From Blastococcus sp. CT_GayMR16 (GTDB lineage Bacteria; Actinomycetota; Actinomycetes; Mycobacteriales; Geodermatophilaceae), in contig NZ_SPQK01000005.1 of NCBI RefSeq assembly GCF_004570875.1, positions 1 through 64,000 of the forward strand: 64,000 bases of DNA, read 5' to 3'. This document shows, piece by piece, positions 50,831 to 50,891 of the stretch. Position 1 is the first letter of the stretch. Each line of letters begins with the position of its first letter. Below the pieces are notes generated by a model, which worked only from the letters and a program-made list of their open reading frames with translations, was not told where the DNA came from and searched no databases. The position numbers and the translations under genes were made by a program.

Positions 50831-50891
50831 CCCGCTCTCAGGGGCCCGCCGCGAGCCTGCGAGTGGTGGGGGGAGAGGGGGTCCTTCATCA
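50831..50891 (-). repeat. Structured stop-codon-linked repeat, copy C (ilvB-ilvN gap)
   Basis: On the minus strand it starts at the ilvB stop as TGATGAAGGACCCCCTCTC, has core CACTCGCAGGCTCGCGG, and closes GAGAGCGGG. The arms are forward 50831-50839 (cccgctctc) and 50873-50881 (gagaggggg), pairing 8 of 9. It lies inside the ilvBNC operon, so it cannot be an efficient terminator. Confidence 0.75.

Follow-up and report, generated by a model that had tools for sequence, protein, structure and literature searches.

The window, the whole stretch of 64,000 nt analysed here, contains three copies of a short palindromic unit on the minus strand, each of which follows the end of a protein-coding gene. 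Copy A (7314–7369, 56 nt, subfamily CCCCGTCCTCCTC) lies between recG and rsmD, copy B (44911–44966, 56 nt) lies behind leuB and copy C (50829–50886, 58 nt), the outer arm of which contains one mismatch, lies between ilvB and ilvN, with R1 scores of 82.8, 73.5 and 65.6 bits, respectively. In all three cases the sequence AAGGACC stands 2 nt beyond a TGA stop codon on the same strand (7372–7374 for recG, 44969–44971 for leuB and 50889–50891 for ilvB), and the three copies that the initial annotation had placed at these gene ends were thus recovered. The rsmD gene call (6759–7313, minus strand, GTG start; TIGR00095, 140 bits against a cut-off of 117.5) begins directly behind copy A, with its start codon abutting the terminal GGCC of the copy, and the ilvN call (50276–50800, minus strand; TIGR00119, 205.5 bits against a cut-off of 56.9) lies 28 nt behind copy C. 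For RecG, LeuB, IlvB, RsmD and IlvN alike, one or more NCBIfam models of the same name scored above their cut-off. At the Rfam gathering score no family matched over the element in the window, the only matches being three tRNAs, the genes for which are clustered at 35707–36072 on the minus strand; at an E value of 0.1, the three loci gave a single weak match to IRES_Bip, located away from the element.

The unit is laid out as G-NNN-AAGGACC, a variable arm, a C-rich strand, a loop of CTCGCANGCTCG or CTCGCTCCGCTCG, a G-rich strand, a second variable arm and GGCC. In the window copies, a CTCGCANGCT core is flanked by the C-rich and G-rich stretches, and the complementary arm and GGCC close the unit. 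Among 32 copies the length was 55–60 nt, and shortened versions of 44–54 nt also occur. The covariance model was built from 17 of these 32 copies, which were selected by their start, core and length, not by their arms, and which share one length and align without gaps; it was restricted in this way because the 5′ end was misaligned in copies with longer arms. In this model, ten pairs form the outer stem, which carries a bulged A; the inner stem, beyond an internal loop, has seven pairs and contains an A·C mismatch. The initial annotation had stated that the outer arms differ between copies and still pair, and this holds in the larger set: 94.5% of the pairing cells were paired in the 17 gap-free copies, two-sided changes occurred at nine of the 17 stem pairs, and the covariation score was 0.306, compared with 0.099 for shuffled alignments and no more than 0.068 when the partners were slid. 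Part of this covariation separates subfamilies that were named by eye according to their arms (CCCCGTCCTCCTC, CCCCCTGCCCCCC, ACCCTTCCCCCC and others), so the score demonstrates that the stem is conserved and does not count independent compensations.

The unit also extends upstream of the hairpin. A G at position −4 was present in 114 of 137 copies and in 26 of 31 copies lacking a stop trinucleotide (P = 8e-8, a value that is too small because the counts include orthologous copies in related genomes), and since it is kept in the latter it belongs to the unit. It coincides with the G of a TGA at −5 in 71 copies and with that of a TAG at −6 in 18. A recurrent tail resembling GTTCCAGCACGTCACC follows GGCC in some copies, among others G010 L222:9484–9542, G012 L257:10763–10821 and G047 L320:16226–16283. 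This tail is perhaps the signature of a subfamily, or of an ancestral unit that was longer; as a general part of a longer unit it was rejected, CCAG at +4 being found in just 11 of 173 copies. The second loop type, CTCGCTCCGCTCG, was seen at the ilvB 3′ ends of L120, L122, L130, L134, L140, L142 and L181. The ilvB copies of G000, G005, G024 and G060 have the CCCCCTCTC arm in common and differ in their loops.

One explanation for such units is chance likeness among GC-rich stem-loops. The genome is indeed GC-rich, and a lone hairpin such as copy C (ilvB) is not unusually stable, folding no better than its shuffles (z = +0.42); copy A has a predicted RNA minimum free energy of −30.6 kcal/mol (z = −2.12 against its own shuffles) and copy B has a z of −2.74. 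However, the start and core pattern matched three times in the window and never in 100 shuffles, and the strict pattern matched 74 times in the 4.5 Mb genome of origin, compared with no match for the reversed control, which refutes this reading; its probability is practically nil. Among 30 pattern matches that were retrieved, L010 alone proved not to be an element. The element is therefore dispersed, and a covariance-model search of the same genome yielded 138 matches at an E value of 0.01, with 150 candidates scored. This search and its extension to the family returned many further copies with paired arms and a link to stop codons, contrary to the outcome that would have refuted the initial annotation.

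Matches were found in 102 of 112 Geodermatophilaceae genomes, with up to 50 candidates evaluated in each genome and stricter filters; no match came from G065 or from the nine genomes that make up groups g6, g9 and g27. Genera rich in the element include single species with hardly any copies (G015, one copy; G078, two; G069, four; G065, none), and the gene ends of these four may carry another repeat family or none. G018 gave two copies in the family-wide search and four in another search. The covariance model found no element in 16 genomes from other families of the order. In a pattern scan of named genomes, 116 of 117 among the stretches listed were from Geodermatophilaceae and one was from a metagenome-assembled genome named 'Frankiales bacterium'; at least 117 stretches matched, including 54 from Geodermatophilus, 31 from Modestobacter, 27 from Blastococcus, one each from Trujillonella and Klenkia and two from Geodermatophilaceae without a genus. 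A phage or plasmid carrier was considered and rejected: among 50,697 phage records and 72,556 plasmid records none matched the recG copy, and no viral contig contained the pattern.

The position of the copies relative to genes was analysed in ten genomes (2.0 Mb), in which genes were called with a simple codon-usage caller and which are 81–92% coding by these calls. A total of 97 copies were placed (61 + 36, after the three weakest of 64 matches and two of 38 had been dropped); one analysis used 84 of 102 matches, duplicates and one partial copy having been removed. Of the 97, 51 lay in codirectional spacers in the sense orientation, 27 in convergent spacers, nine in codirectional spacers in the antisense orientation and eight in divergent spacers, with one at an edge and one inside a gene call, so that 78 of 95 have a sense gene upstream. 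Divergent spacers received eight of 95 copies even though they make up 26% of intergenic bases, whereas convergent spacers received 27 of 95 and make up 12%.

Anchoring is directional and close to exact. The expectation that copies would cluster on the sense strand just past stop codons was borne out by 65 of the 79 copies that are preceded by a gene in the sense direction; these start between −3 and +4 nt from the end of its stop codon, compared with 3% under random placement in the same spacers. Exactly +2 was the position of 35 of the 79, and it was the mode behind TGA (35 of 47). A stop trinucleotide starting at −6 to −1 accompanied 142 of 173 copies, whereas 7.9% of positions in intergenic DNA have one there. 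The next start codon was 22–705 nt away for 38 of 41 anchored codirectional copies. Non-TGA stops were commoner behind anchored genes (18 of 65) than among genes in general (238 of 1796), as if the element sometimes supplied the stop of its host gene. Upstream of the stop, codon composition was the only signal seen besides the stop codon itself, and a DNA target motif in that region was accordingly rejected.

Orthologous gene ends turn over rapidly. Among 30 genomes fetched per gene and read by eye, six recG, eight ilvB and three leuB ends were filled, which requires at least six, six and three changes, respectively, on a quick tree of the 29 genomes having all three genes (of 38 searched), four of the 26 inner branches of which are open. 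The empty recG–rsmD junctions of other genera often consist of an ATGA or GTGA overlap, which indicates that the empty state is probably ancestral. A clean pair is G012, in which the element stands between CCCTGA and ACCTCG, and G000, which reads CCCTGACCTCG; both flanks align up to the junction. In the sister species G047 and G054, the flanks of which are ∼96% identical, 27 sites were sorted by eye into 11 shared sites (three of which rest on element-like sequence outside the match list), 14 occupied in one species (G047 111002 and G054 295252, in stitched coordinates, being uncertain) and two that hold different elements at the same place. At one such swap site, a CCCCGCG-type and a CCCGTCC-type element follow the same CTACTGA, with the stop codon of the convergent gene 1–2 nt away. 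In addition, one convergent junction is filled in both G000 (stitched 123486) and G012 (stitched 154775), with the element pointing in opposite directions in the two genomes.

Filled sites are themselves re-entered. In L281/L271, L269/L276 and L270, the stop and the AAGG left from an older copy are followed by a newer one, and the left arm (∼9–10 nt) of the older copy is gone; in L280 the newer copy lies between the stop and the older copy, and at one locus each in L249 and G005 a copy lies within the loop of another. The gain of a second hairpin at a stop that already had one is more easily explained by an insertion preference than by a need for a hairpin. No constant target-site duplication was seen, the G010/G000 and G012/G000 comparisons showing either no duplication or one of a single base. 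A TGA duplication is possible at recG and, in G060/G021, at ilvB; a simple TGA duplication as the general case was rejected, being contradicted by cases with a gap of 0 and of −1, in the former of which the last 12 nt upstream have diverged.

The repeat could also have spread without any transposition, existing copies being passed on by ectopic gene conversion or by template switching. Stretches behind stops have been replaced, one element has been exchanged for another at the same base, and the empty alleles of G047 and G054 are mostly unclean, with the alignment resuming 4–78 nt past the element and with a smaller hairpin in some. Furthermore, arm and loop types occur in differing combinations at ilvB, and these mixed sequences suggest that arms and loops may have recombined there. 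However, conversion does not account for insertion into element-free sites (G012 and G010 compared with G000), nor for the colonization of the recG–rsmD junction, the empty form of which in other genera is a start–stop overlap and which requires an insertion. As a full account, conversion is quite improbable, and mobility of the element itself remains the preferred reading.

The question of what moves the element was addressed with two protein families. The Y1 transposase domain PF01797, which includes RAYT, was found in none of 38 Geodermatophilaceae genomes, whereas five of 14 control genomes were positive, and in none of 16 genomes of the genus, the sole match in that search being G030 from another family; RAYT was therefore rejected as the mover, as far as this domain can reveal it. 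The reverse transcriptase domain PF00078 occurs in 21 of the 38 genomes and is missing from element-rich genomes, including the genome of origin; it was rejected since its presence does not follow copy number. No source transposon was found in the PF01797 and PF00078 searches.

The closest comparison is with REPs. As described in the available text of PMC3733652, REPs of the GTAG and CGTC superfamilies are 20–40 bp in length with a tag that allows some degeneracy, the termini of GTAG REPs often supply a TAG stop and CGTC REPs have no dedicated transposase. In the terms of that text, the element resembles REPs in consisting of dispersed, presumably selfish short hairpins with subfamilies of alternative complementary arms, in its location at gene ends in mostly codirectional and convergent spacers (here with a sense gene upstream in 78 of 95 copies), in termini that supply a stop and, as for CGTC REPs, in having no dedicated transposase (PMC3733652). 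It could be taken as a GTAG-type family moved by RAYT, a Y1 HUH transposase: a G is conserved at −4 before the hairpin, 12 of 173 copies have GTAG ahead of AAGG, with GTCG there in nested copies, and the distribution at gene ends is that of REPs as far as the same text describes it. However, the element is 56–58 nt in length with a two-part stem, an internal loop and a conserved loop, its one constant base in place of a GTAG or CGTC tag is G(−4), most copies lie 0–3 nt behind a stop with a mode at TGA + 2, and the element, so far found only in Geodermatophilaceae, is accompanied by no PF01797 match. Membership of a RAYT-moved GTAG family is thus highly improbable. With no constant tag, a unit exceeding 20–40 bp and no RAYT, the element is a REP-like variant and not a REP.

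Actinobacterial intrinsic terminators without a U-tract consist of a long GC hairpin behind a gene, and the element resembles them in this respect; it differs in being a dispersed conserved sequence that is nearly absent from single sister species and that can adjoin the next start without a gap. The initial annotation had argued from the missing T-tract that this is not a normal terminator, and the sequences agree with that view: none of 173 copies has TTTT in +1 to +15, and the fraction of T in +1 to +10 is 0.13. A broader alternative is that a functional RNA element of 3′ ends came first, as a U-less terminator, as a block to exonucleases or as a hairpin for ribosome release, and that useful copies were duplicated by recombination. 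The covarying arms, the sense orientation and the enrichment in convergent spacers are consistent with this, as is the behaviour of E. coli REPs, which are reported in PMC12306157 to down-regulate translation and stall ribosomes when located within 15 nt of a stop. By analogy, similar RNA effects are possible for the element, most anchored copies of which lie less than 15 nt from the stop. In opposition, the absence of a U-tract, the landing of new copies ahead of existing ones and the counts of 0–4 copies in G065, G015, G078 and G069 do not fit a function that came first, and its scarcity in single species of genera that are otherwise rich in it speaks against an essential function. The recG–rsmD junction is likewise awkward for a strong terminator: in G000, G006 and G010 the start codon abuts the hairpin with no gap, which makes strong termination there unlikely. 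We therefore consider an original RNA function to be unlikely, and the mobile element to be the better account; it could still possibly stabilize or process mRNA ends as a side effect.

Other short repeats are less similar. MITEs such as Correia and NEMIS are short, palindromic, non-autonomous and present in high copy number, all of which applies to the element, but the element has no terminal inverted repeats beyond the base of its stem and no constant target duplication was seen. For MIRU, a target of DTGA was reportedly given by Supply et al. in 1997. The portion of PMC12548453 considered here describes MIRU as a mycobacterial short repeat, apparently mobile, at gene junctions, with a short coupled ORF and insertion at start codons; the element is similarly an actinobacterial short repeat at gene junctions. 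On these descriptions, the element is set apart as a hairpin anchored behind stops that is also common in convergent spacers. Insertion at stop/start overlaps would fit the recG–rsmD junction, but 38 of 41 anchored codirectional copies are 22–705 nt from the next start, and 27 copies are in convergent spacers. Among the matches listed in literature searches on repeats in Geodermatophilus, Geodermatophilaceae, Blastococcus or Modestobacter, or on actinobacterial REP/RAYT, none concerned the element, and the main text of a 2025 REP survey, in the part available, does not name these genera.

Taken as a whole, the element is probably a non-autonomous, imperfectly palindromic mobile DNA family of Geodermatophilaceae, ∼56–58 nt in length, REP-like in character, RAYT-less and anchored to stop codons by its insertion. 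The initial annotation had offered a dispersed element inserting at stop codons as one of its readings, and the many copies, their sense-direction anchoring and the empty orthologous sites bear this out. Such an element would move as folded single-stranded DNA, acted on in trans by a candidate enzyme. The stop would be a safe landing site, where the protein stays whole and the first bases of the element keep or supply the stop codon, and the best reading is that the element is selfish and lands where it does the least damage. A transcribed hairpin directly behind the stop may then influence the release of ribosomes, the 3′ ends of mRNAs or how the next gene is expressed. More tentatively, insertion might be aimed at stop codons through translation termination instead of a DNA motif, for example where a terminating ribosome leaves DNA open behind it, or through an RNA-linked step, by a class of enzyme that would be new to REP-like elements; we regard this as conceivable and somewhat doubtful.

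These genomes offer a natural data set on how a chromosomal parasite survives where 81–92% of the DNA is coding, by means of an exact address behind stops. With about a hundred species and fast turnover, they provide an opportunity to learn how REP-like DNA is mobilized when no RAYT is present, and the same species can be used to test whether a hairpin 2 nt past a stop alters translation termination, the decay of mRNA or the balance within operons. For annotation, gene ends in Geodermatophilaceae, including those of recG and ilvB, should be expected to vary by mobile DNA.

A few copies, in three genomes of the genus, stand near gene starts. Those at G000 L209:3474–3530, G005 L246:6822–6878 and G002 L265:6382–6433 are preceded by GATCGAAC and lie 17–31 nt upstream of a called gene start, and at the corresponding site G009 carries a short remnant, AAGGACCTCGC.
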